DNA from: a virus | Reading direction: 5' to 3' (one strand) | Length of the DNA: 30,015 bases | Virus record (IMG/VR): IMGVR_UViG_3300025809_000084 | Location: 1 to 30,015 of that record | The notes under the pieces: generated by a model | The model's database searches: none | Seen by the model: only the letters and a program-made list of their open reading frames with translations | Told to the model about the DNA's origin: nothing | In this document: piece by piece, positions 13,903 to 27,083 of the stretch | Layout of the letters: each line of letters opens with the position of its first letter | How positions within the stretch are numbered: position 1 is the stretch's first letter | Program-made: the position numbers and the translations under genes

Positions 13903-15198
13903 ATGGCTACAGCTATACCAGTAAAATATTATAACACATACGTTTTAAAAAAAATAAACAGACAGACTGGGCCTTCTAGAACTGAGTATGATTGGTATAT
14001 TGAAGAATCTAGAATTAGAGGTGGCTATAACAACGTACAAACCGGGTTAGCTCCTAGAGCTTTTTTAGCTTCAGATGAAAACACCCAACAACTTTTAGCT
14101 AACTCCATTATATATTCTGGCGTTGTAAACTCTAGAACAGGTGTAAACCAAACAAATGTTTTTCCATCTGGTCAAGATATAACTAGAACTGTAGACCCAT
14201 CAAAAGGTAGTATACAAAAACTATACGCTGAAGATACTAATTTAACTATATTTCAAGAAAGAAAAGTCAATAGAGCTTTAATAGATAAAGACGCTATATA
14301 TACTCAAGAAGGTTTACCTGTGCAAACCACGTCTAATGTAGTTATCGGGGCTATACAACCTTACGCCGGTGAATTTGGAATTGCAAAAAATCCAGAGTCT
14401 TTTGCTGTATATGGTTACAGAAAGTACTTTACTGATGCAGCTCAAGGATCTGTTCTTAGGTTGTCTAGAGATGGTATAACAGAAATATCTAACTATGGTA
14501 TGTATGACTTTTTTAGAGATCAGTTTGGTATATTAGAAGCTGGAAAAGCTATAGGTGGTTATGACATATACAATAAAGCGTATGTTTTGGCTTTACAAAC
14601 CTCTACTTCAGGTTCACCGATAACCGTGACGTTTGATGAGCAAGTATTAGGCTGGACAAGCACATTGAGTTACATACCTAGACAGATGTTTAGTATACAA
14701 AATAACTTCTTCTCTACTAAAAACGGTTCTTTATATAAGCATTATGTTGAGTTTAATAACTCTGGTGGTGTTTTACCTAGAGCTAATTTTTATGGAGTTC
14801 AATATGATTCAACTGTTACTAGTATATTAAACACAAATCCTTCTCTAGTAAAGACATTTAAAACAGTTAATTATGAAGGTAACTTTAATTGGTCTATGGA
14901 GAGCTTTGTTACTAATGAAGATTCAGCAAATCCAATTGCAGTTTACAATTTACCAACAACTTTAGCTAGCATGGAGAGTAGTTTGTTTAAAAATGAATTT
15001 AAAAGAAAAGAAGATAAGTATTTTGCTAACTTAATAAATACTTCAGCAGCTACGGGTGGTGAGGTTATATATGGTAGATCAATATCTGGGGTTAAAGGAT
15101 TTTTTGCAACAGTAAAGTTAAGAGCTACAAACACAGCTAGCTCAGGAACAAATGAGTTATTTGCGCTATCATCAAACTACTCTGAATCATCTTATTAA
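13903..15198 (+). CDS. Companion tail/muzzle structural protein
   Basis: A 431-residue protein following the muzzle-like gene. The blocks YIEESRIRGGYNN, SIQKLYAEDTNLTIFQERKV and NRALIDKDAIYT are, from memory, part of the tail stabilisation/muzzle assembly in crAss-like and marine phages, where they can occur within the same long polypeptide as the upstream N-terminal motifs. Here they are in a separate gene, so the two products probably form one complex. The chain is beta-rich with frequent Tyr and Phe and no membrane segment. A 35-base A/T-rich gap separates it from the upstream gene. Structural role is fairly secure from context; the exact position in the tail is inferred. Confidence 0.7.
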   Translation: MATAIPVKYYNTYVLKKINRQTGPSRTEYDWYIEESRIRGGYNNVQTGLAPRAFLASDENTQQLLANSIIYSGVVNSRTGVNQTNVFPSGQDITRTVDPSKGSIQKLYAEDTNLTIFQERKVNRALIDKDAIYTQEGLPVQTTSNVVIGAIQPYAGEFGIAKNPESFAVYGYRKYFTDAAQGSVLRLSRDGITEISNYGMYDFFRDQFGILEAGKAIGGYDIYNKAYVLALQTSTSGSPITVTFDEQVLGWTSTLSYIPRQMFSIQNNFFSTKNGSLYKHYVEFNNSGGVLPRANFYGVQYDSTVTSILNTNPSLVKTFKTVNYEGNFNWSMESFVTNEDSANPIAVYNLPTTLASMESSLFKNEFKRKEDKYFANLINTSAATGGEVIYGRSISGVKGFFATVKLRATNTASSGTNELFALSSNYSESSY

Positions 15199-15208
15199 AT
15201 AAAATTAA

Positions 15209-15622
15209 ATGGAATTAACAGCAAGAAGATTAACTGAAAAAGACTATAATACTATCGTAGAATGGTGGAAGTCTTGGCCAGAGTGGGAACCTTTGTCACA
15301 AGAAATGTTACCTGAAAATGGTACAGGTGGAATAATAATAGAAAAAGAAGGTGAACCTATAGTAGCGGGTTTTTTATATGCAACAAATTCAAAAATAGCT
15401 TGGATGGAGTGGATAATATCAAATCCAAAATATATAATTAAAAAAGACAGAGAGCAAGCTATACTACTGTTAATAGATTCATTAGAGCAATGGGCTTATG
15501 ATGGAGGTTTTAAATTAATACTTAGTATAGGTAGAAGCAAAAGTCTAATAGATAAACACAAGAAATTAGGGTATACGGTGGACGAAAATCCATCACACGA
15601 AATAATTAAAAAAATAAAATAA
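15209..15622 (+). CDS. GNAT-type acetyltransferase-like protein
   Basis: A 137-residue protein with the beta-alpha order of a GNAT N-acetyltransferase: an N-terminal strand-helix (LTARRLTEKDYNTIVEWW), central strands (GGIIIEKEGEPIVAGFLYAT and KIAWMEWIISNP), a helix in the acetyl-CoA loop position (REQAILLLIDSLEQWA), and a final strand with a GYTVDE-like end. The classical Q/RxxGxG/A loop is not clear, so catalysis is uncertain. Small GNAT proteins of this look, starting with a W-rich helix and a LPENGTGG segment, are frequent in marine phage structural modules as I recall. It sits between tail and ejection-protein genes, 10 bases after one and 1 base before the next, so it is co-expressed with virion proteins. 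It may acetylate a phage or host protein. Confidence 0.72.
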   Translation: MELTARRLTEKDYNTIVEWWKSWPEWEPLSQEMLPENGTGGIIIEKEGEPIVAGFLYATNSKIAWMEWIISNPKYIIKKDREQAILLLIDSLEQWAYDGGFKLILSIGRSKSLIDKHKKLGYTVDENPSHEIIKKIK

Positions 15623-15623
15623 T

Positions 15624-16361
15624 ATGGCAGCAATAGCAGCAATTGGAGCTGGAGTTTCCCTTATAGGTGGAGCTGTGTCAGCAAATCAAGCGGACAAAGC
15701 AGGTAAAAGAGCCGGTAGGGCAGCGGCAAGAGCTCAACAAGAAATAGACAGAATAAAAGCTGAAAGAGTTCCCATAACAAATCCTTATGCAGGTAATAGT
15801 AATCTATCTAGTTTAGCTTCTAATTTAAGTGATATGATATCTAATCCTTTCGCTAGCATGTCTGTTGCCACTCAAGCCTCTGAAATACAAATGGAACAAG
15901 CTGATATGGCTTTGGCTAATTCTTTAGATACACTAGCAACGACAGGCGCGAGCGCTGGTGGTGCGACTGCTTTAGCGCAAGCAGCTTTAGCTAGTAAAAA
16001 AGGAGTATCAGCTAGTATAGAACAACAAGAAGTTGCTAACGAAAAACTAAGAGCGCAAGGTCAACAAAAAATGGAAATGCTTCAAATGAATGAAGAACAA
16101 AGAATACAAGGTATACAAATATCAGAAGGACAAAGAATGCAAACTCAAATGGCAGCTGGGGAACAATTTGTAATGCAAACAGAGGAAAACAGAAGTAACG
16201 CAGATTTAGCTAGAGCAGCTGGACAACAACAGCAAGCTATGGCAAATCAAGCTTCCGCTAATCAAGCAAAAGCTCAAGCGTGGGGTAGTGCTATATCAGG
16301 AGCGGTTGGTATGGCGTCGGCTGTTGGTACAGCTGGAGAGGGAACATTATTTAACCCATAA
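15624..16361 (+). CDS. Internal virion/ejection protein, T7 gp14-like in size and position
   Basis: A 245-residue Ala/Gln-rich protein. Residues 3-20 form a small-residue hydrophobic helix (IAAIGAGVSLIGGAVSA) that could insert in a membrane. A basic helix follows (KAGKRAGRAAARAQQEID), and residues 140-220 are a long Gln/Met/Glu helix likely to be a coiled coil. A second Gly/Ala-rich helix closes the protein (AWGSAISGAVGMASAVGTAG). This layout, and its place before a mid-sized and a giant gene, fits the short first member of podovirus ejection-protein sets (T7 gp14, then gp15 and gp16), which build a channel across the cell envelope. The assignment is by composition and order, not by sequence match. 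Confidence 0.6.
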   Translation: MAAIAAIGAGVSLIGGAVSANQADKAGKRAGRAAARAQQEIDRIKAERVPITNPYAGNSNLSSLASNLSDMISNPFASMSVATQASEIQMEQADMALANSLDTLATTGASAGGATALAQAALASKKGVSASIEQQEVANEKLRAQGQQKMEMLQMNEEQRIQGIQISEGQRMQTQMAAGEQFVMQTEENRSNADLARAAGQQQQAMANQASANQAKAQAWGSAISGAVGMASAVGTAGEGTLFNP

Positions 16362-16375
16362 TAAAAGTACAAAAC

Positions 16376-18028
16376 ATGAGTGCATACACTAATCCAACAA
16401 TAATACAAGATTTATACGGTGCAAAAGCTTGGGCAGATGCATCTAGTCAAGTTTCAGCAGCTTTAGTATCTGGCTTTAAAGAAGTAGTAGATGCTAGAAA
16501 TAAACAAGCTGACATAGTACAAAAGAAAAAAGAAATATATCAAAAATCATATATATCTGCAGAGCAAAAAGCTTTAGAAGCGTCAGAAGCTAACTTTATA
16601 AAATTAGAAAACGAAGGCGCTGATAAAGGTTTTATAGAGCAAGCAAGAGAGCAAGTTGAGTACGAAATGTATGGAGGTGTTTATGAATACAAAGGTTTTA
16701 AAAAAGACTATGGAATAGGTACCATAAAGATGGCTGCAGAGGTTAATTCAAATTTAGACTTAGACTCAGATACAAGAAAACAATACCAAAAGGCTATAGC
16801 AGGTCAACAAAAAACTTTTAATAACTTTGCTAAAGAAGCTGCAATACCATTAGCTGACAAAGATGATTTTGAAAAAGTAATTAGTGGTGAAGAAGGTTAC
16901 TATTTATCTGGGACAGGAGCTGGACAATATACTAACTACTTAGTTGGTTCTAGTATATATAACAAACCTTTACCTAGTAACGTGGAAGTTACAAATAGAG
17001 CTTTTGAAAGAATACAAAACTCAAAAGGAGATTTTGAATCAATAATGAAGCTTTCATTTAAGATAAAAGCAGGAAGCCCAGAAGCGGCTTCTTATAGTGA
17101 TGAAAGTAAATACCCTGTAGTTGACGGTTATATAAATGTTGATTGGAGCAGAAACCTATCTGACGGCAGTTGGGATGGTAATATTGCTAGACAAAATATA
17201 ATACCTAAAATAGATTACAACGCACAGGCTAAAGAGTTTAATGTAGTAAAAAACGGGCAATTAAACAAGCAATATAAACATAAATTAGCAGGAACAAAAA
17301 CAAAAGGAGATACCTTAGACCAAGTTAAATCTATGGAGTTTGTTAATGTAGAAGGAGCATTAAGCTCTATGAAAAATTTATTTAACGCTAAAGCAGGCAC
17401 AATAACAAAAATGCTGCAAGGAAGTCCTACAGATCAACAAGATGCTTATAATTATTTAGAGTCCTTAGGTAGAGCTGGTATAGATTACGCTGATCAAATT
17501 AAATCTGGAAAATTCTCAGCAGAAGATGTTCAGCAAGAAATACTTGGATATATTAACGATGATTTTTTAACTCATTTTAACTTAGGTCAAGAAAGAGATC
17601 CTGCAACTGGAAAATTTGTTAATCAAAAAGTTAATGGATTAGAACTTCAAAAGAGAATGATAACGCAAGAGCAGATAGACGAACTTAAAGAAGCTGGCGT
17701 TGACGTAAGCAATGTTAAACCAGGTACAGAGCAATATTTTTACATAGAAGAAAGTGATGTTTCTAAACCAACTAGAAACCGAAATTATAACCCTAGTGGA
17801 AAGTTAACTGAAAAACAACAAGACAAAGTTGATTTTGCTGAAGACGTTGCTAATAACCCTGAAAAATTTAAAGTAATGAGAACAATACCTGGATCAGGTG
17901 GTAGAAAAATAAAATTAAATGATGATGGAACTTATAAAATTTATGATAAAGAGAGTAGTCCTGTTCCAGGAAGAACTAGCGTAACCAAAGAAGAGTTAAT
18001 GAAAATTTATCCAATTAAGAAAAAATAA
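16376..18028 (+). CDS. Probable internal virion protein, gp15-like in position; function unknown
   Basis: A 550-residue protein rich in Lys, Glu, Gln and Ala, with no recognised catalytic motif. The N-terminal 110 residues are helical (ADASSQVSAALVSGFKEVVD, then repeated QKxxE steps). The middle has aromatic blocks such as SYSDESKYPVVDGYINVDW, and the C-terminus is Lys-rich and ends in a PIKKK tail. No signal peptide or membrane span is visible. Placement between the gp14-like protein and the 3017-residue protein suggests the second component of an ejection-protein set. Cargo protein of the tail barrel is an equivalent term in crAss-like phages. The stop is 1 base before the next ATG, so translation is probably coupled. 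Confidence 0.6.
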   Translation: MSAYTNPTIIQDLYGAKAWADASSQVSAALVSGFKEVVDARNKQADIVQKKKEIYQKSYISAEQKALEASEANFIKLENEGADKGFIEQAREQVEYEMYGGVYEYKGFKKDYGIGTIKMAAEVNSNLDLDSDTRKQYQKAIAGQQKTFNNFAKEAAIPLADKDDFEKVISGEEGYYLSGTGAGQYTNYLVGSSIYNKPLPSNVEVTNRAFERIQNSKGDFESIMKLSFKIKAGSPEAASYSDESKYPVVDGYINVDWSRNLSDGSWDGNIARQNIIPKIDYNAQAKEFNVVKNGQLNKQYKHKLAGTKTKGDTLDQVKSMEFVNVEGALSSMKNLFNAKAGTITKMLQGSPTDQQDAYNYLESLGRAGIDYADQIKSGKFSAEDVQQEILGYINDDFLTHFNLGQERDPATGKFVNQKVNGLELQKRMITQEQIDELKEAGVDVSNVKPGTEQYFYIEESDVSKPTRNRNYNPSGKLTEKQQDKVDFAEDVANNPEKFKVMRTIPGSGGRKIKLNDDGTYKIYDKESSPVPGRTSVTKEELMKIYPIKKK

Positions 18029-18029
18029 A

Positions 18030-21000
18030 ATGGCAATAGATCCTATTTACATACACCCAATCTTAGGTGAACTAACACTTGCTGAGGTACAAGACAACGC
18101 TAATTACGAAGAAATGTCTTTAGAAGAATACGTAAGTGCTTTTAATTTAAAGATAAAGGAAAAAGAACCAGTAGGAACAGGTACGGTGTTAAGACCTGAA
18201 GAGGGAAAGCCAATAGTTGTTGCAGGAGAGAATGTACCTGTAGCAACGGAAATAAACGAGACATTCGCTTTGGAATCTCAGTTGGAAGATATTTTATCGG
18301 AATACGAAAAAGTTGAACCAGGAGGTATATTCGGTGACAAATACAATGGCACTAGAGCAGGTAAGATGCTTCTTGATGAAAGATATTCTAATATAAGAAG
18401 TAAGTTAAAGAAAGCATATCAAGGTTCTAATATGGACATAAATAAACCTATGTCTATTATAGATAAAAGCGAGGAAGAGGTGCAGGAGTTTTTAATGGAT
18501 GCTTATCCAGGTGTTTTTATAGAGCAAACAGGTGTTAGAAATGCTTTAAACATAATACTACCAGGAACAGACAAACCAATAGAATTAGATTTACAGCCTT
18601 TTACTTTAGACGGTAGAGACGAAGCTGTAGATGTTTTAAAAAAATTAGATCAAGTTTACAACAGCCAAACAGACGAAGAACTTATTATTAACACTGTTGG
18701 TCAACTAGCTGATGTGCTAGATGAAACAAAAGACGATAGAGCTATAAACAAAGCTTTAGAATCTACAGGTTATAGCGTGTCTATAAATCAATCAAGTGGT
18801 TCTAGAAAAGATGGAACATATCAGCCTTATTCTTATAATGTTTTAAAAGATGGGGTTATTGTTCAAGAAAAGCTAGATGTTAATAAGTTAAGATCTTTTA
18901 TGAAAGAAGGTCTAGGAGATGAAGGTTATGAATCTATAAAGAAAAGTAGTTACGAAGCAACTAGTAACTACTTAGAAACTAAGGCTAGAGAAGTCAAAGC
19001 CGAAGAAAAAATAATAAAATCTAATAAATCTTTAGATTTAGAGTATTTTAAAAACACGTATGCAGAAGATATAATAGCAAACGTAAACCAGGTTTTACCA
19101 GAAGGTTTTAGCGAGGAAGAGCAAGACCAAATAAGAGAGTACATGGAAAGCAACGCTATAGGCGAAATGGTTTATAATGCTAAGCTGGATAAAATGATTA
19201 AAGTGCCAGGTAAAATAGATGACGACATTATTAGAATGAGAAACTGGCGTGGTCTACCTGAAAATATTGTAAATAAAATAGAGCAAGCTGGAGGTGAGGA
19301 TTTTATTAAAAAAATGTATATTGCTGGTATTAAAGAAGTAAAAAACCAAGAATTACTTGACAGATCTTCTACTATAGCAGAAAAAATAATGGCTAACTCT
19401 GGTGATCAAAACTTAATTAGATTAGGTCAAGGTGTTGCTAAAATTGAAAAAACAAAGTTTGACGAAAGAATAAAAGCTCAAGTTAAAGAACTTCCTAATA
19501 TACAAAAAAAGTTTATTGATATATTAAGTGCAAAAGCTAAAGAAATTTCAAATAACTCACCAGAGGGAACTGAAATTAGTATAGAGTATACTCCAAGCGG
19601 TGAAGCTATATTCTCAGTTTCTAACGATAGAAATCTTAATTCTGAAGAGGGTAAAAAACTTAAACAGGCTCAGTCAGAAATGTACAAGCTACAAAATGAT
19701 TTTGCAAATCTTCAAACAGATTACTCAGCTACTATAGAAAATATGCAGAGAGAAGTTTCGGAGTTTTACGCGGCTAACCCTGCTGATGCTGATGTTTTTA
19801 GAAACTCAATGAAAGAGTACGGTATAGGTGGTTTGTTAGCTAAAGATGTTAATGATGCTTTTGCTGGAATACTGTTAGCAGCACCCACTTTGGTTAACGC
19901 TGACTGGGCTGTAGAAGCACAAAGAAGATTAAACGCTAAAAATGAATATTTTGAAAAAATGGGTAGTTACGATGACGGTAACTTTGGTACTTATTTTTTT
20001 AGAACACTAGGCCAGCAGTCTGCTAATATTACTTTAGCTATAGCTACTGGTGGTATTGGTTCAGCAGCAGGCTTATCTTCCGCTATGACAGCTAATGCTA
20101 TTGGTGGTTTATTTGGTTTGTCTTCAGGAGCTCAAACTTATCGTGATCTAAAAACACAACAACAAATAGTTGGAACAGCTGACAAGCAAGCTAAAATAGC
20201 TTTAAATGCTTATGAGAGTGGCATAATAGATTTATATACTTATACTAACACTATGAGAGATATAAACAAAACAAAAGCAATGAGCGAAATAAGCGATGCT
20301 CAAATTGTAAACTCTTCGTTAGCTAATGGTATAATCGAAGGTACTGTAACTAGGTTTTTAGGTACAGCTCCTAACACTATAAAACTTTTAAAAGACTTTA
20401 AATCACCCACGTCCTTAACAAGTATAGCTCAAAATTTATACGCAGGTAATTATCAAAAAGTAGCAAGTTTAATAGGTAAACCGTTGTTAGTTAGAGGTGC
20501 TGGTGAGCTTGCTGAAGAAGAGTTAATATATGGTGGTCAACAGTTTATAACAGAATATGGTATACTTGATAGAGAACTAGATCTTAGCGCTTGGGACGAC
20601 ACTGCTATGTCTACTATAATAACACTAGGTGTTTCTCAAAGCCCAGGTGTTGCTTATTCTGGTATGGTAAATTATAATGCTACTAAAAAGTTTGAGCAGA
20701 AAATAAACAAACTTAGAATAAACAACAATGAGCTTAGCACTTTAATACAAGATTCTAAATTAGATGATAAACAAAAAAAGCTGTTATTGTCTGACATGGC
20801 TTCAAATCTTCAAGAGCAAGGATTAGAACTAGACAGGTTAGGTGTAGATATTCTTGGTCGTGATGTTAACGATATAAAAAGATTAATAGGTACTGAGTTA
20901 ATAAAGTCACAGCTTTTATCACAAGCAGGGGTTATGCCTGGTATGTCTGACGTTGACAAAGCTGAGGTTATAAATTCATATAAAGAGTCTTTAAGTAAGG

Positions 21001-24000
21001 AGCAAGCTAAAGTGTTTGAAACTCAATTAAATGTGTTAGACAGTCAAACTAAAGACATAAAAGAAAAACCAACCAGTACTAAAAAAGCTAAAGAAAGCTT
21101 AGGTGATTTATGGACTAATAACAATAAGTATTTAAGAAAGGTAAATAAAGATAACTATAAATCCAAATCTACTGAAGACCAAATAGTAGCTGTGATAAAT
21201 CATGTAAGAGAGAGCGTTAGCAGAGAAAGTAAAAGAGCAGCAAAAGCAAATCCTGAGATTGTAGAGATTGTTGAAAACGAAACTATAAACGATAAGCCTT
21301 TAAACAATAAACAAAAAGAATCTAGATATAAAGAGCTTGGAGATCAAATGGCTTTAGACAGATCAAGAGCTATTTCCGTGGCTGAAGGTGTAAGTGCTAA
21401 AGCTAGTGATATATTTGCAGATATAAAAAGTGTAAAATTTGTAGAATATACTACAGAAGAAGAACTAAAAGAAGCACTTGAAAATCAAGGTGTAGATGTT
21501 AATTCTGAAGAGTATAAAAACGCTGTTTCTAAATTCAACAATGGTGAAACTTATGGCGCTGTAATGGGTAACACTATAATAACACAAGATAAAGATCAAG
21601 CAGCAAAAGATTTAGATAAAGGCCAAATTAAAGCTGGAACAGTTATACTACATGAGTTTTCTCATATAGTTGATGATGCTCGTATAAAACCTGAAAACAG
21701 AAAGTTATACGCTGAAAACTTAGCCGCGGCAGCTGCTAAAACAAACAATAAAGCTATAGAAGCTGTAGATAAAAGCGTTAGAAACATGCTTGACAATCTA
21801 TATGCTGATGAAAACTTGACTTTTGAGAATAGTGAAAAGTACAGAGATGAATATACTAAGTATATGCAAGAGTATCTGTATGCTTATGAAGATGAAGTAC
21901 AGATAGAGCAAGAAGATAGTTTTATGACTAGAGTGTTTAACAACACTAACCCTAACAAACTTAACACTCCAGAAAAAGCTTTAAGCTATTTAGCTGCTAA
22001 TAACGCGGCATTTAGAGCTGGTAAGGTAAGTAAAAAAACCAAAAAAGCTTTACAAGAATTTGAGGGTAAAGACACTAAGTTTTCAGATAAATCTACAGTA
22101 AACAAATTAGCTGTTGAATATAAAAATGATCCTAACTCCTTTAACACAGGTGATAAATATTTTGACTTCTTTACTCAATATCAATCAGTAGCTTTAGATG
22201 CCATGGGTTACAATGTTGCTAAAGGTGATATACTAGCTGATGAAGCATCTCAGTTTGTAGCTACAGAATTTGAAAGCGTTATAAAAAATTATAAACCTGT
22301 AGATAAAGATGGTAATAAACAAGCTTTTACTACATACGTATTTAACGTATTTAAAGCGGGTAGAGCAAACAAGTTTTACAAACAAGAGTTTGCACCTAAA
22401 GATTTCAAACAAACTAGAATAGGTGTAGGCTTTGATATAGCTGCGCAAGATTCTAACGAGACGCTAGAAGAAAGAGAAGCTAGAGAAGCTAAAGAAACAG
22501 TATCTAAAATAGATCCTAGGAAGTTTAAAATTGTAAGTCCAGATATTAAAAAGCTTGAAAACTTAGTTAATATATCTCAAAGTGATATAGCTCCTTTTAA
22601 CGCTGACTTTAAATCTATAAGTAGTAAATTTGGAACTAAAATTGCTTCGTCTATTTATAACATATCAGAAGGTAAGCTTGATAAAAACGCAAACTTAACT
22701 TACGCTAAAAAAATAATAAACGGTATACCTGAAAGCTCTGAAGCAGGTAGAATACAAGACGACTTTAGAAACGATCAAGAGGTTAGAAAGTTTATAAAAC
22801 TATTACCACCTACAAATGTAACTTCAAAAGAATCTGAGGTTGGGACTAAAGGAGAAAAAATTCTTGTATCTAAAGACGTTCAAGGTAGATCTATAGGTTT
22901 AAAAGGTAGAGTATTAAATTATTTTTACGCTGACAAAACGGGTGAAAGATCATCTGGATTAAGCAGTCAACCTTTTATAAGAAGATTAAAACCTGAATTT
23001 ACAGGTAATATTTCTACTCAAACTATTAAAGATCTTCAAGAAGCTATGGGTATTACTCCTGCTGGAGAACTAAATAGGTATGATAGAAACATAGGTACTT
23101 TTTTAAGTGGTATAGCTAAACTTAAAGGTTCTATAGTAGCTAACACTATAGCTAGAGACAAAGCCTCTAAGTTAAATCAAAAATCCTCTAGATCACCTAA
23201 ACAAATACAAGCAGACATAGGTGCTGGTAGATCTGATATTCAGTTTAGTGAAAAGGTAAAAGGCATACTAGCTAACCCAGTATTTAAACTAGAGACAAGA
23301 GGTGTTGATGGTTTACTTAAAGCATATGGTATAGATGGTACTTTTAAATTTAAAACAAGAGAAGACGTAGATAAATATGTAGCTGAAGTTAAAAAGAATT
23401 TACTACCTTTAATGCCAAGAGCATTTTGGTTTGGAAAAGGTGGTGGAACTGTGTTTACCCCAACATCTAAAGTTTTAGGTAAAAATGAAAAATCTTTATA
23501 TTATGATTATTATGTAGATCAGATGAAAGCTTTAGGTAATTTAGATCTTAATCCTAATCAAAAGTATGGAGCGCCTATAAAAGGTGTTAGTGATTTTTCA
23601 GTGTCTGGTTACGACACGCTTTTTAAGACAAAAGAAATTATAAAAGCAAAAGTTAAATCAGGTGATATAGCTGCTTTTAATAGAAAAGTGGGTAAAATCC
23701 ATCAAGCTATGTGGTATAGATTTAATAAAGCTATACAGTCAAACAAGGAAAATGCTAAAGTAATAGGTAATTATCTAAAAATAACAGGTAGTGACACTGG
23801 ACACTGGCACAAACTTGGAGCTCAATTTGTGGGTTACTCTAATAAAATTACAGGTAGCAGATTTGAATACGAGCATGCTATGCCTGCTACATCCGCTTAT
23901 TTGTATTTATTAGATGTTTCATTATCTAAAAGTGCTTTTGAAAGTGCTTATGATTTTGTTATAGATAACTACAAGTTAATATCATTAGATAAAGCTATGG

Positions 24001-27000
24001 ATAAAAAGCTTATAGCTGTAGGTCTTCGTAGTGAAATGCCAATTGGTTGGAACTTATTAAACAACAAATGGTACGATAGATATTTTAGCGAACTAGTAGC
24101 TACTGTTGATGGAGGTATAGATCCAAGAGGATTAATAAGCATTGATGGTACTAATTTTCAAGATAAATATAATATAAATGCAGATGGTAGTCCTTACATT
24201 AGAGGCACGTTTAAACCAGAAGCTAAATCACAAGTTAAAAAAGATAACATAGCTGACAAAGCTATGAAAAATGCTAGAAGTCCTAAGTACTCTGAGAAAA
24301 TTAAAAAAGCTAGAGTGTTTGATTTTGATGATACATTAGCTCAAACAAAAAGTAACGTTTTATATACTATGCCTGATGGCACAAAAGGTAAAATAGATGC
24401 TGGTACGTTTGCTAAAGACGCTGGTAGAATGGAAGCAGAAGGAGCTGTATGGGATTTTTCTGAGTTTAGCAAAGTCATGAATGGTAAGAAAGGACCGCTA
24501 TTCGATGTAGCAAAAAAGATACAAGATGCTAGAGGATCTGAAGATATATTTGTATTAACAGCCAGACCACAAGACGCAGCTGGCCCTATTAAAGAGTTTT
24601 TAGGAAGCTTAGGTTTAAACATACCTTTAAAAAACATAACTGGATTAGCAGATGGTAGGCCTCAAGCGAAAGCAGATTGGATGCTAGGTAAGTTCGCTGA
24701 AGGGTATAATGATTTTTATTTTACAGACGATCATCTAGGCAATGTTAAAGCCGTTAAAGATGTGTTAAGTGTTTTAGATGTTAAATCTAAAGTACAACAA
24801 GCTAGAATAAAGTTTAGCGAAAAGCTTAGTGACGAATTTAACTCTATGATAGAAAGAAACAAAGGTGTTGATGCTAAAGCTACTTTTTCAGATGCACTAG
24901 CTAGAAGAAGAGGTCAAAAGCAAAAACGTTTTTCTTTCTTTATACCACCGTCAGCTGATGACTTTAGAGGTTTAACAATGTACACGTTTGCTGGAAAAGG
25001 TAAACAAGGTGAAGCTGATCAAGAGTTTTTTGATAAAGCATTAATAAAACCCTACATGAGAGGAGTTGGAGCTGTAGAGCAAGCAAAGCAAAGGATAACG
25101 AATGATTACAGAGCTTTAATAAAAAAGTATCCAAAAATAAAAAAGAAACTAAGAAAGAAATTTGAAGGCACAAAGTATACGACAGATGAAGCTGTGAGAA
25201 TATTTTTATGGGACAGAGCTGGGTTTACTATACCAGGTTTAAGTAAAACAGATCAAGCAAAGATTGTAAACTTAGTATCTAAAAATGAATCTATGGTGCA
25301 GTTTGCCGATGGAGTTGAACTAGTAACTAGATTAGATACTTTTGTAGAGCCAAATGAATTTTGGGACGCTAGCACTATAATAGGTGATTTAAGTAGAGTT
25401 GGTAGAGATGTTAATAGAAAAGAATACTTAAGCGAATTTATAGAAAACGTAGATATAATATTTTCACCAAAGAACTTAAACAAAGTACAAGCAGTATATG
25501 GATTTAGAGTAAGGGAAGCTTTAGAAGATTCTATACGTAGAATGAAGAGTGGTAATAATAAAACTAGTGGTGGTGGAAGATTAGTTGAGTCGTGGAATAA
25601 TTGGGTTAACAACTCTGTTGGTGCTATAATGTTTTTCAACAGAAGATCAGCACTGTTACAGTTAATGTCTTCTGCTAACTTTATTAACTGGTCAGACAAC
25701 AACCCAGCACAAGCTGCTTTAGCTTTAGCAAATCAACCTCAGTATTGGAAAGATGTTATAAGGTTATTTAACTCAGATAAACTAAAACAAAGAAGATCTG
25801 GATTAGAAGGTGATATACAAGAAGCTGAAATTGCTCAAGCATCTAGAAAAGGTGGAATGACAGGTGTTATATCTTACTTGCTTAAAATAGGTTTCACACC
25901 AACACAAATAGCGGATAGTATAGCTATATCTACAGGTGGTGCAACTTTTTATAGAAATAGAATTAATACTTATAAAAAGCAAGGCTTTGAAGCAGATGAA
26001 GCGGAAGCAAAAGCTTTTGAAGACTTTAGTGCTATATCGGATGAGACACAACAGTCTGCAGATCCAATGCTTATATCGGGTCAACAGTCTAGTGTTTTAG
26101 GTAGATTAGTTTTAGCTTTTCAAAATACACCTATGCAGTATACTAGGTTAATTAAAAAAGCTGGTCAAGATCTTATAAACGGAAGAGGTAGTAAAAAACA
26201 AAATATATCTAAAATACTATACTACGGAGCTATACAAAACTTTATATTTAACGCATTACAAAACGCGTTGTTTGCTTTAGTGCCAGGATTCGATGATGAA
26301 GACGAAGATTTTGCAACAGATAAAGAAAAAGAAAAATACGACGAAAAGAAAATTAGAAGTGAGGAAAATAAAATAGCTAGAATAGCTAATGGTATGGTTG
26401 ATTCAATTGTTCGTGGATCTGGTTTAGCAGGTGCAGTTGCTGTTACTATTAAAAACACCATAAGAGAGTTTATTGAGTTTCAAGAAAAACCTCAGTTTTC
26501 TAGAGAAAACGCAGACATAATACTAGCAGCTCTTCAGATATCACCACCTATAGGCTCTAAAGCTAGAAAAATAAACGCAGCGCTACAAACCTTGCAATAC
26601 GAGAAAGATGTTATAAATGAAAGAGGTTTTGATGTTATGATAGATGGTAAGTTTCAGTTAAGCCCTACATACAATATGATAGGTTCATTATCAGCTGCAA
26701 CACTTAATTTACCTTTAGATAGAGCTGTAGATGAAATTAATTCTATAACAGAAGCTTTAGATACTAGAAATACACAATGGCAAAGAATAGCATTAGGTTT
26801 AGGTTGGAGATCATGGGATACAGGTGTTAAAATCGAAGAGCATGATTTAATAAAAACAAAAGCTAAAGCGGCTAGAAAAGAAGCTGGTAAAATAAAAGCT
26901 AAAGAAACTAGAAAAATAAACAAGCAAAAAACAAAAGAGTATAAAGCTTACAGATTATTAGTTTTAGAATCGGTTCCAGATAGTGTTCTTGAAATGATTT

Positions 27001-27083
27001 ACTCAGAAGAAAGAAAAACAGGTAAACCATACCCTGCTTTTAAACTTCAAAAAATATATGATAAATATTCAGATTTAAAATGA
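18030..27083 (+). CDS. Giant polyvalent virion protein: HExxH metallopeptidase, HAD phosphatase and large polyvalent domains
   Basis: A 3017-residue protein, the largest gene here. Residues 611-622 and about 665-705 are Gly/Ala-rich hydrophobic segments. Residues 1208-1212 are HEFSH, a zinc-metallopeptidase HExxH motif inside GTVILHEFSHIVDDA. Residues about 1400-1455 resemble sigma-70 region 2 in spacing (ADEASQFVATEF, then AFTTYVFNVFKAGR). Residues 2094-2258 contain HAD motifs: DFDDT at 2098-2102, VLTAR at 2175-2179, Lys 2214 and FTDDH at 2231-2235. The C-terminal 750 residues match the large polyvalent-protein class I recall from marine phages and MuF-type prophages, with an acidic DEDEDF patch and a Lys-rich end. 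It takes the place of T7 gp16, so ejection into the cell is the best guess. Its stop overlaps the amidase start (ATGA). Confidence 0.72.
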   Translation: MAIDPIYIHPILGELTLAEVQDNANYEEMSLEEYVSAFNLKIKEKEPVGTGTVLRPEEGKPIVVAGENVPVATEINETFALESQLEDILSEYEKVEPGGIFGDKYNGTRAGKMLLDERYSNIRSKLKKAYQGSNMDINKPMSIIDKSEEEVQEFLMDAYPGVFIEQTGVRNALNIILPGTDKPIELDLQPFTLDGRDEAVDVLKKLDQVYNSQTDEELIINTVGQLADVLDETKDDRAINKALESTGYSVSINQSSGSRKDGTYQPYSYNVLKDGVIVQEKLDVNKLRSFMKEGLGDEGYESIKKSSYEATSNYLETKAREVKAEEKIIKSNKSLDLEYFKNTYAEDIIANVNQVLPEGFSEEEQDQIREYMESNAIGEMVYNAKLDKMIKVPGKIDDDIIRMRNWRGLPENIVNKIEQAGGEDFIKKMYIAGIKEVKNQELLDRSSTIAEKIMANSGDQNLIRLGQGVAKIEKTKFDERIKAQVKELPNIQKKFIDILSAKAKEISNNSPEGTEISIEYTPSGEAIFSVSNDRNLNSEEGKKLKQAQSEMYKLQNDFANLQTDYSATIENMQREVSEFYAANPADADVFRNSMKEYGIGGLLAKDVNDAFAGILLAAPTLVNADWAVEAQRRLNAKNEYFEKMGSYDDGNFGTYFFRTLGQQSANITLAIATGGIGSAAGLSSAMTANAIGGLFGLSSGAQTYRDLKTQQQIVGTADKQAKIALNAYESGIIDLYTYTNTMRDINKTKAMSEISDAQIVNSSLANGIIEGTVTRFLGTAPNTIKLLKDFKSPTSLTSIAQNLYAGNYQKVASLIGKPLLVRGAGELAEEELIYGGQQFITEYGILDRELDLSAWDDTAMSTIITLGVSQSPGVAYSGMVNYNATKKFEQKINKLRINNNELSTLIQDSKLDDKQKKLLLSDMASNLQEQGLELDRLGVDILGRDVNDIKRLIGTELIKSQLLSQAGVMPGMSDVDKAEVINSYKESLSKEQAKVFETQLNVLDSQTKDIKEKPTSTKKAKESLGDLWTNNNKYLRKVNKDNYKSKSTEDQIVAVINHVRESVSRESKRAAKANPEIVEIVENETINDKPLNNKQKESRYKELGDQMALDRSRAISVAEGVSAKASDIFADIKSVKFVEYTTEEELKEALENQGVDVNSEEYKNAVSKFNNGETYGAVMGNTIITQDKDQAAKDLDKGQIKAGTVILHEFSHIVDDARIKPENRKLYAENLAAAAAKTNNKAIEAVDKSVRNMLDNLYADENLTFENSEKYRDEYTKYMQEYLYAYEDEVQIEQEDSFMTRVFNNTNPNKLNTPEKALSYLAANNAAFRAGKVSKKTKKALQEFEGKDTKFSDKSTVNKLAVEYKNDPNSFNTGDKYFDFFTQYQSVALDAMGYNVAKGDILADEASQFVATEFESVIKNYKPVDKDGNKQAFTTYVFNVFKAGRANKFYKQEFAPKDFKQTRIGVGFDIAAQDSNETLEEREAREAKETVSKIDPRKFKIVSPDIKKLENLVNISQSDIAPFNADFKSISSKFGTKIASSIYNISEGKLDKNANLTYAKKIINGIPESSEAGRIQDDFRNDQEVRKFIKLLPPTNVTSKESEVGTKGEKILVSKDVQGRSIGLKGRVLNYFYADKTGERSSGLSSQPFIRRLKPEFTGNISTQTIKDLQEAMGITPAGELNRYDRNIGTFLSGIAKLKGSIVANTIARDKASKLNQKSSRSPKQIQADIGAGRSDIQFSEKVKGILANPVFKLETRGVDGLLKAYGIDGTFKFKTREDVDKYVAEVKKNLLPLMPRAFWFGKGGGTVFTPTSKVLGKNEKSLYYDYYVDQMKALGNLDLNPNQKYGAPIKGVSDFSVSGYDTLFKTKEIIKAKVKSGDIAAFNRKVGKIHQAMWYRFNKAIQSNKENAKVIGNYLKITGSDTGHWHKLGAQFVGYSNKITGSRFEYEHAMPATSAYLYLLDVSLSKSAFESAYDFVIDNYKLISLDKAMDKKLIAVGLRSEMPIGWNLLNNKWYDRYFSELVATVDGGIDPRGLISIDGTNFQDKYNINADGSPYIRGTFKPEAKSQVKKDNIADKAMKNARSPKYSEKIKKARVFDFDDTLAQTKSNVLYTMPDGTKGKIDAGTFAKDAGRMEAEGAVWDFSEFSKVMNGKKGPLFDVAKKIQDARGSEDIFVLTARPQDAAGPIKEFLGSLGLNIPLKNITGLADGRPQAKADWMLGKFAEGYNDFYFTDDHLGNVKAVKDVLSVLDVKSKVQQARIKFSEKLSDEFNSMIERNKGVDAKATFSDALARRRGQKQKRFSFFIPPSADDFRGLTMYTFAGKGKQGEADQEFFDKALIKPYMRGVGAVEQAKQRITNDYRALIKKYPKIKKKLRKKFEGTKYTTDEAVRIFLWDRAGFTIPGLSKTDQAKIVNLVSKNESMVQFADGVELVTRLDTFVEPNEFWDASTIIGDLSRVGRDVNRKEYLSEFIENVDIIFSPKNLNKVQAVYGFRVREALEDSIRRMKSGNNKTSGGGRLVESWNNWVNNSVGAIMFFNRRSALLQLMSSANFINWSDNNPAQAALALANQPQYWKDVIRLFNSDKLKQRRSGLEGDIQEAEIAQASRKGGMTGVISYLLKIGFTPTQIADSIAISTGGATFYRNRINTYKKQGFEADEAEAKAFEDFSAISDETQQSADPMLISGQQSSVLGRLVLAFQNTPMQYTRLIKKAGQDLINGRGSKKQNISKILYYGAIQNFIFNALQNALFALVPGFDDEDEDFATDKEKEKYDEKKIRSEENKIARIANGMVDSIVRGSGLAGAVAVTIKNTIREFIEFQEKPQFSRENADIILAALQISPPIGSKARKINAALQTLQYEKDVINERGFDVMIDGKFQLSPTYNMIGSLSAATLNLPLDRAVDEINSITEALDTRNTQWQRIALGLGWRSWDTGVKIEEHDLIKTKAKAARKEAGKIKAKETRKINKQKTKEYKAYRLLVLESVPDSVLEMIYSEERKTGKPYPAFKLQKIYDKYSDLK

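Follow-up and report, generated by a model that had tools for sequence, protein, structure and literature searches.

The window analysed here, a stretch of 30,015 nucleotides of viral DNA, carries a giant open reading frame with an ATG start, which encodes a protein of 3017 aa, P0001 (Table 1). The re-checked open reading frame and translation agree with a previous sequence-only reading of this DNA in coordinates, strand, length and all cited residues. P0001 stems from an uncultured marine-type phage of Bacteroidota and lies behind three smaller genes, with which it is discussed below.

Table 1. Features of the P0001 locus, with nucleotide positions in the window.
Feature	Residues	Position	Strand	Basis or remark
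137-aa protein, phrog_17252		15209..15622	+	common to isolates
245-aa protein		15624..16361	+	syntenic with phi40:1 gp99 (200 aa, virion by MS/MS)
550-aa protein		16376..18028	+	syntenic with phi40:1 gp100 (549 aa, virion by MS/MS)
P0001, polyvalent ejection-type protein		18030..27083	+	ORF, relatives, C-terminal model matches
N-terminal region	1-1037	18030..21140	+	A9 alignment, 11 relatives
Zincin-like metallopeptidase	1140-1345	21447..22064	+	invariant HEHE, A4 alignment, AF2, Pfam
HEFSH motif	1208-1212	21651-21665	+	sole HExxH of P0001
Third zinc ligand	Glu1274	21849-21851	+	invariant among relatives
Sigma-70 region-2-like helical domain (suggestive)	1377-1457	22158..22400	+	
Middle domain	about 1550-1735	22677..23234	+	A2 moderate conservation, confident AF2 segments
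Border motif QFS	1738-1740	23241..23249	+	RGxxKFS in relatives
'EH' domain	1741-2076	23250..24257	+	E1948-H1949 conserved
Border motif KYS, ahead of HAD	2086-2088	24285..24293	+	
HAD-superfamily phosphatase domain (predicted)	2088-2262	24291..24815	+	A3 alignment, Pfam, model, Foldseek
HAD motif I, DFDDT	2098-2102	24321-24335	+	
HAD C1-cap site		24372..24389	+	insert position in relatives; no insert in P0001
HAD motif II, VLTAR	2175-2179	24558-24560 (T2177)	+	
HAD motif III	K2214	24669-24671	+	
HAD motif IV, FTDDH	2231-2235	24726-24731 (D2233-D2234)	+	
Border motif KFS, right behind HAD	2261-2263	24810..24818	+	
C-terminal all-helical region	2300-2972	24927..26945	+	family's best-conserved part; A1 alignment, AF2, BFVD

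Relatives of P0001 in IMG/VR comprise 148 complete proteins of 2068-4137 aa, 123 of which are non-redundant; they were selected with a profile built solely from the C-terminal part, and the motif counts given below refer to those 123 (or 122) proteins. Direct comparison of P0001 with Pfam, PHROGs and the PDB yielded no matches, neither half of the protein matched isolated phages (tblastn, E 0.01), and no cultured member of the family occurs among 50,697 isolated-phage records. Genome matches of the family are only phage contigs in MAG bins, with no proviral copy, and an origin as a prophage gene was therefore rejected.

The metallopeptidase motif that had been proposed from the sequence proved to be real. 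Exactly one HExxH occurs in 121 of the 123 relatives, where composition predicts 1.5 in the entire set, and the family profile shows its two histidines and its glutamate, together with the downstream Glu1274, to be invariant (121/121). In the AF2 model, HEFSH sits on a helix behind strands, at a local pLDDT of about 95, and Glu1274 on the subsequent helix, which is the zincin arrangement of an HExxH in the active-site helix and a third ligand in the next. Pfam M78/M90 matches were obtained for a few family members, and the zincin profile matches solved structures weakly (small neutral proteases and IrrE, E 0.7-1); Foldseek of this region against the PDB, with the whole multi-domain model as query, gave no match.

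The HAD motif set noticed in the same reading is equally genuine, with motifs I-IV following each other in order on a Rossmann-like fold, the first strand of which ends in DFDDT in the AF2 model, in the canonical HAD order. The set is retained in 116-122 of 122 relatives, motif II being present in every one, the lysine in 120 and the aspartate pair in 116. Among 49 family members, 36 match Pfam DUF2608 and 13 match HAD, and Foldseek relates the HAD model to a class C acid phosphatase (probability 0.92, but E 1.1, with the whole multi-domain model). The domain is a predicted phosphatase; its profile found no match to PNK phosphatases.

An insert at the cap site is present in 28/122 relatives and is polynucleotide-kinase-like in 25 of the 122 and ADP-ribosyltransferase-like in two. 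The kinase inserts match AAA_33 (up to 1.7e-15), and their profile matches solved polynucleotide kinases (Pnkp, T4 PNK), while the insert of relative L053 matches ART-PolyVal (1.5e-4). Because a polynucleotide-kinase-like domain is nested in the HAD of these relatives, nucleic-acid ends or nucleotides could be the substrate of the HAD domain, an assignment we make with low confidence; such nesting suggests a function in nucleic-acid end repair and not in protein dephosphorylation.

Situated between the zincin and the HAD is a helical domain found in 104/123 relatives, 159-405 aa downstream of HExxH, whose resemblance to sigma-70 region 2 is suggestive. Comparison with sigma factors by hhalign gave probabilities of 57-67, exceeding every shuffle, and in the PDB its A5 profile matches nothing but two sigma factors, at E 0.024 and 0.7. 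A broader MAFFT profile of the region lost the sigma signal, the Pfam Sigma70_r2 threshold was not reached in the window protein, and sliding windows detected no match of more than 14 columns to the helix-turn-helix of sigma region 4.

The remaining regions are less readily classified. Two hydrophobic stretches of the N-terminal region that are rich in Gly and Ala (residues 610-628 and about 655-705) point to a possible membrane or channel role; E826, E829 and E830 are invariant in the 11 aligned relatives, and the region has no Pfam match in P0001 itself, no convincing one among the relatives and no meaningful PDB match. In the EH domain the E and the H are each at least 90% conserved, and no Pfam or PDB relative was found. 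A short motif of the form (K/R)(F/Y)S recurs at the domain borders and is a candidate processing site. At the QFS border Ser1740 is 92% and Phe1739 71% conserved, and the strict form RGxxKFS occurs in 18 proteins versus 0.2 in shuffles. The motif lies at most 35 aa upstream of DFD in 36/122 relatives (4.0 in shuffles), KFS follows the HAD in 77/122 (4.5 in shuffles), and a further RFS at 2300 opens the C-terminal region.

The polyvalent character ascribed to the protein on first inspection is borne out by the fold of this C-terminal region, whose model matches PolyVal ART, LPD and MuF-type proteins in BFVD as well as a structural protein of elemoC_14-1A. P0001 has no Pfam LPD match, and it is the BFVD structure matches that include LPD-annotated proteins. 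In the comparison of folds recommended earlier, BFVD yielded these relationships; against the PDB, Foldseek with the models of 950-1040 aa was swamped by long helical proteins and told little except for the HAD. P0001 thus joins several disparate domains in one long chain, namely a zincin, a HAD and possibly a sigma-like domain, with the zincin as the hub. Its long helical C-terminus is best read, from the model, as a shared packaging or ejection scaffold.

Giant virion-associated chains with a single zincin, variable enzymes including ART-type ones and a helical LPD-like C-terminus have been described as polyvalent phage proteins (Iyer et al., 2017; PMC5512222). P0001 resembles them, but its family adds HAD, polynucleotide-kinase-like and possibly sigma-like domains; the terms haloacid, polynucleotide kinase, zeta toxin and sigma are absent from the text of that study. 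A kinase and a HAD are joined in one chain in about a fifth of the relatives, as in T4 Pnkp and bacterial Pnkp, although the kinase of the relatives is inserted within the HAD cap and P0001 itself has none.

Much of what can be said about the location of P0001 comes from its neighbourhood. The gene ends a cassette syntenic with gp97-gp101 of Cellulophaga phage phi40:1, all annotated as virion proteins from experimental MS/MS, and the gene order also matches elemoD gp61-gp72, gp72 being annotated as structural. The portal matches only phages of Flavobacterium, Cellulophaga, Tenacibaculum and Maribacter and one uncultured podovirus, with no crAss-like match among 87 records. Together with gene-for-gene synteny with Pervagoviridae and Elemovirus, this replaces the crAss-like context assumed previously: the lineage is that of a Pervagoviridae/Elemovirus-like podovirus. 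The neighbours had been called gp14- and gp15-like, a likeness of gene order and size and not of homology. The 245-aa gene is found at 72/148 relatives' loci, and the 550-aa protein, without a sequence relative among isolates, would by its position be an ejection partner.

The slot of P0001 is occupied by gp101 in phi40:1 and phi38:1 (1691 aa) and by gp72 in elemoD (3757 aa), structural proteins in the same order and position. The elemo partner has one HExxH and a C-terminal fold that matches P0001. The slot partners differ in having no HAD motif, and phi38:1 gp101 in lacking HExxH as well; no sequence similarity to P0001 is detectable. The virion location proposed earlier is supported by this analogy, the phi40:1 partner having been found by MS/MS, and P0001 is likely to be carried in the virion and ejected into the host.

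We favour, with a probability of roughly 0.6, the reading of P0001 as a multi-enzyme chain that accompanies the DNA on ejection and has a self-cutting zincin and a HAD phosphatase. P0001 would be assembled into the virion together with two smaller ejection proteins and would enter the host along with the DNA. The zincin would most likely cut its own chain, probably at the (K/R)(F/Y)S borders, thereby freeing single domains, and the freed HAD would act as a phosphatase whose most likely substrates are nucleic-acid ends or nucleotides. Self-cleavage itself is put forward tentatively, at slightly less than even odds. No domain is commoner in polyvalent proteins than the zincin, which has been proposed as their processor, and P1 DdrB, a protein of this class, is processed before packaging, yet the N4 vRNAP has a zincin and is packaged uncut (PMC5512222), which counts against self-cutting. 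So does the lack of the border motif at some borders in many members, as ahead of the HAD. A sigma-like factor released in the host by cutting at these motifs, which might direct the RNA polymerase of the host to the earliest phage genes, plus an end-healing module of HAD and, in some members, nested polynucleotide kinase, is a more speculative extension to which we assign little weight.

The sequence-only reading had suggested a host-takeover weapon; in such a case zincin and HAD would act after ejection on host proteins as protease and protein phosphatase. Host-directed proteolysis is listed as an alternative for such zincins by Iyer et al. (PMC5512222), and related polyvalent proteins carry host-modifying ADP-ribosyltransferases, with ART-like inserts in two relatives here. 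The zincin is, however, near-universal while the other domains vary, a pattern expected of a processing role, and the kinase inserts suggest nucleic-acid or small-molecule substrates for the HAD. The zincin precedent favours self-processing at least as much as host attack, and we consider the weapon unlikely. Even less probable is an assembly protease of the prohead type that, in head maturation, would cut itself or other proteins of the virion and never be ejected. The late structural gene position and the processing of DdrB prior to packaging would suit such a protease, but a conserved HAD and inserted enzymes make little sense if undelivered, and the small, medium and giant trio resembles an ejection set such as that of N4 (PMC12633501).

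N4 itself offers a further parallel, since gp50 of this member of the Schitoviridae has about 3000-3500 aa, an HExxH (C1), then C2, a large helical part of about 110 kDa, and two smaller co-ejected proteins (PMC12633501). The zincin and helical C-terminus of P0001 could correspond to C1 and C2 of a virion RNA polymerase of this kind. P0001 differs from gp50 in lineage, in its HAD and in the lack of a detectable RNA polymerase domain, as neither the whole protein nor its N-terminal or middle parts match one in Pfam or the PDB. Family members encode a free sigma factor in 23/25 long records, which implies use of the host RNA polymerase; a search of 25 records for a phage single-subunit RNA polymerase gave no match but carries no weight, its control search having been silent too. 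We regard a virion polymerase as very improbable. No more credible would be motifs surviving as structural relics without catalysis, as every catalytic residue, the third zinc ligand among them, is invariant where overall identity drops to 10-20%.

The P0001 family constitutes a large group of probable giant ejection proteins, of which the IMG/VR loci sampled hold 148 complete members. Its additions to the repertoire that phages deliver before any transcript is made would be a HAD phosphatase, a cap-nested kinase and possibly a sigma-like domain. The repeated border motif offers a testable handle on the old idea that polyvalent proteins are cut by their own zincin. Searches for RNA families and tRNAs found none, and RtcB is absent from 37 records; an RNA ligase is present in 11/37 records, unlinked to the kinase insert, which counts against the favoured reading.

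The open reading frame at 18030-27083 (+) encodes a giant protein of 3017 residues and takes up 30% of the window. The residues singled out by the sequence-only reading are all present, including HEFSH 1208 as the sole HExxH, and DFDDT 2098, VLTAR 2175, K2214 and FTDDH 2231. The gene is preceded, in this order, by the end of TerL, the portal, head proteins, two large proteins and proteins of 137, 245 and 550 residues, and downstream of it come an amidase and, on the opposite strand, a ribonucleotide reductase. The record of 30,015 bases is classed as linear in IMG/VR and is probably a fragment.

Four IMG/VR scans recovered 148 complete relatives, 123 of them non-redundant (2068-4137 residues), which were selected by a profile of the C-terminal region, independently of HExxH. 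The cassette is conserved, since relatives of the genes at 13903 and 15624 recur in 77 and 72 loci, upstream of the giant gene where the order was inspected. Neither half of the protein has a match at E 0.01 among 50,697 phage records, and matches in 84,980 genomes lie exclusively on contigs within MAG bins. In one locus (L028, 5102-13130) the giant frame is broken into frames of 1810 and 883 residues close to HAD motif I, a frameshift or sequencing error.

The crAss-like context proposed earlier finds no support, as the portal search returned 87 records, nearly throughout flavobacterial phages, without any crAss-like signal. Gene order is the same in Cellulophaga phage phi38:1 (Pervagoviridae), Elemovirus elemoD and the Manatee Spring podovirus MW202828, and in phage phi40:1 the same stretch (gp97-gp101), including the last large protein, is annotated as structural from experimental MS/MS. 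In these isolates the last slot is also filled by a giant protein, but one without sequence similarity to the window protein, carrying one HExxH in elemoD gp72, none in phi38:1 gp101 and two in the 3859-residue protein of MW202828 (L085, 741-12320). The latter is named 'reticulocyte binding/rhoptry protein' in its record, surely a misannotation.

Exactly one HExxH occurs in 121 of the 123 relatives, where composition predicts 1.5 in total, and in the zincin profile H1208, E1209, H1212 and E1274 are invariant (121/121), while elsewhere in the domain identity is only about 10-20% in distant members. The structure model (pLDDT about 95 in this region) places HEFSH in a succession of strands, the HExxH helix and a helix bearing E1274; a Foldseek search of this region against the PDB gave no informative match. 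Conserved motif and model topology thus give good support to a zincin domain, and a solved relative gives none.

The HAD assignment likewise withstands modeling, with the elements in canonical order: motif I ends strand 1, motif II ends the next core strand, the lysine starts a helix and DD follows the last strand. Motif II is conserved in 122/122 relatives, the lysine in 120/122 and DD in 116/122; the count for motif I (122/123) is partly built in, because the selection profile starts 30 residues before it. Among 49 members, Pfam matches are to DUF2608 (36) and HAD (13), and the top-ranking structure in the PDB by fold is that of a class C acid phosphatase (Foldseek probability 0.92, but E 1.1).

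The HAD of the window protein has a small cap only. Motifs I and II lie more than 110 residues apart in 28 of 122 relatives, and 25 of these (L012, L077, L115-L169) hold a P-loop polynucleotide-kinase-like domain of about 200 residues inside the cap. Six inserts scanned match AAA_33 (to 1.7e-15) and Zeta_toxin (to 9.4e-13), both above cut-offs. A profile of all 25 matches Pnkp kinase domains of known structure (4gp7 and relatives, which we take to be from Clostridium thermocellum, and 4xrp, Pnkp1), T4 polynucleotide kinase and, ranked last, zeta toxin. The same site holds an ART-PolyVal-like insert in L031 (6e-3) and L053 (1.5e-4), both below cut-off, and a third kind of insert in L062. Pnkp heals nucleic-acid ends, and since a kinase within a phosphatase resembles it, our guess is that the HAD is a phosphatase acting on nucleic-acid ends or nucleotides. 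An RNA ligase (PF09414) in 11 of 37 longer records shows no link with the kinase insert.

The polyvalent character suggested from sequence is upheld by the C-terminal model (residues 2070-3017, pLDDT 77.5). Its strongest matches are four viral proteins belonging to the same family (E to 1.9e-62). PolyVal ART, LPD and MuF-type proteins and further large phage proteins come next (E 1e-12 to 1e-4), with the elemoC_14-1A structural protein at 7e-4, and these matches place the giant protein among the polyvalent proteins. For such proteins, injection with the DNA and cutting by their own zincin have been proposed; P1 DdrB is processed before packaging and N4 vRNAP is not (PMC5512222). N4 gp50 has the same layout, HExxH followed by a helical part, and two smaller proteins are ejected alongside it (PMC12633501). 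On these precedents, the giant protein is likely delivered into the host from the virion, and its HAD would remove phosphates from nucleic-acid ends or nucleotides. The zincin may cut its own chain or serve in host proteolysis, the former being somewhat more likely by the same analogy.

A (K/R/Q)(F/Y)S border motif, naturally read as a candidate processing site, follows the HAD in 77 of 122 relatives (4.5 in shuffles) and precedes it in 36 (4.0 in shuffles). RGxxKFS stands upstream of the EH domain, named for its Glu-His pair, in 18 relatives (0.2 in shuffles), and FSEK occurs 22 times against 3.1 expected. The EH domain, for which no relatives were found in Pfam or the PDB, might be a further enzyme. 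A glutamate cluster in the N-terminal part adjoins Gly/Ala-rich hydrophobic stretches and is possibly, together with them, a membrane or channel element.

Features of the giant protein and their positions in the window
Feature	Residues	Window positions	Remark
GE..EE cluster	826-830	20505-20519	E826, E829, E830 invariant; 11 relatives
Border motif	1350	22077-22085	
Border motif	1738	23241-23249	
EH domain	1741-2076	23250-24257	conserved Glu-His 1948-1949
Border motif	2086	24285-24293	
Border motif	2261	24810-24818	
Border motif	2300	24927-24935	

Between zincin and HAD, residues about 1377-1457 (22158-22400) read like sigma-70 region 2. A profile of 37 relatives, searched against the PDB up to E 5, retrieves two chains only, both sigma factors (RpoE 2q1z, E 0.024; 8b3z, E 0.7), and with a cleaned profile 104 of 123 relatives show the domain, invariably 159-405 residues past HExxH. 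Against 30 Bacteroidota sigma factors, hhalign scores 29.6 (probability 57), with maxima of 16.7 and 20.6 in two runs of block-shuffled controls; adding four phage sigma factors gives 31.0 (probability 67), and those four by themselves do not score above shuffles. A broad MAFFT profile of the region matched no sigma factors, and sigma region 4 was not found in the giant protein. The top three of 59 sliding windows along the protein overlap the sigma-like region. L221-L224 and 23 of 25 long records encode a phage sigma factor as a separate protein, about 253 residues long; transcription is therefore likely carried out by host RNA polymerase, and the sigma-like domain would have had a local source.
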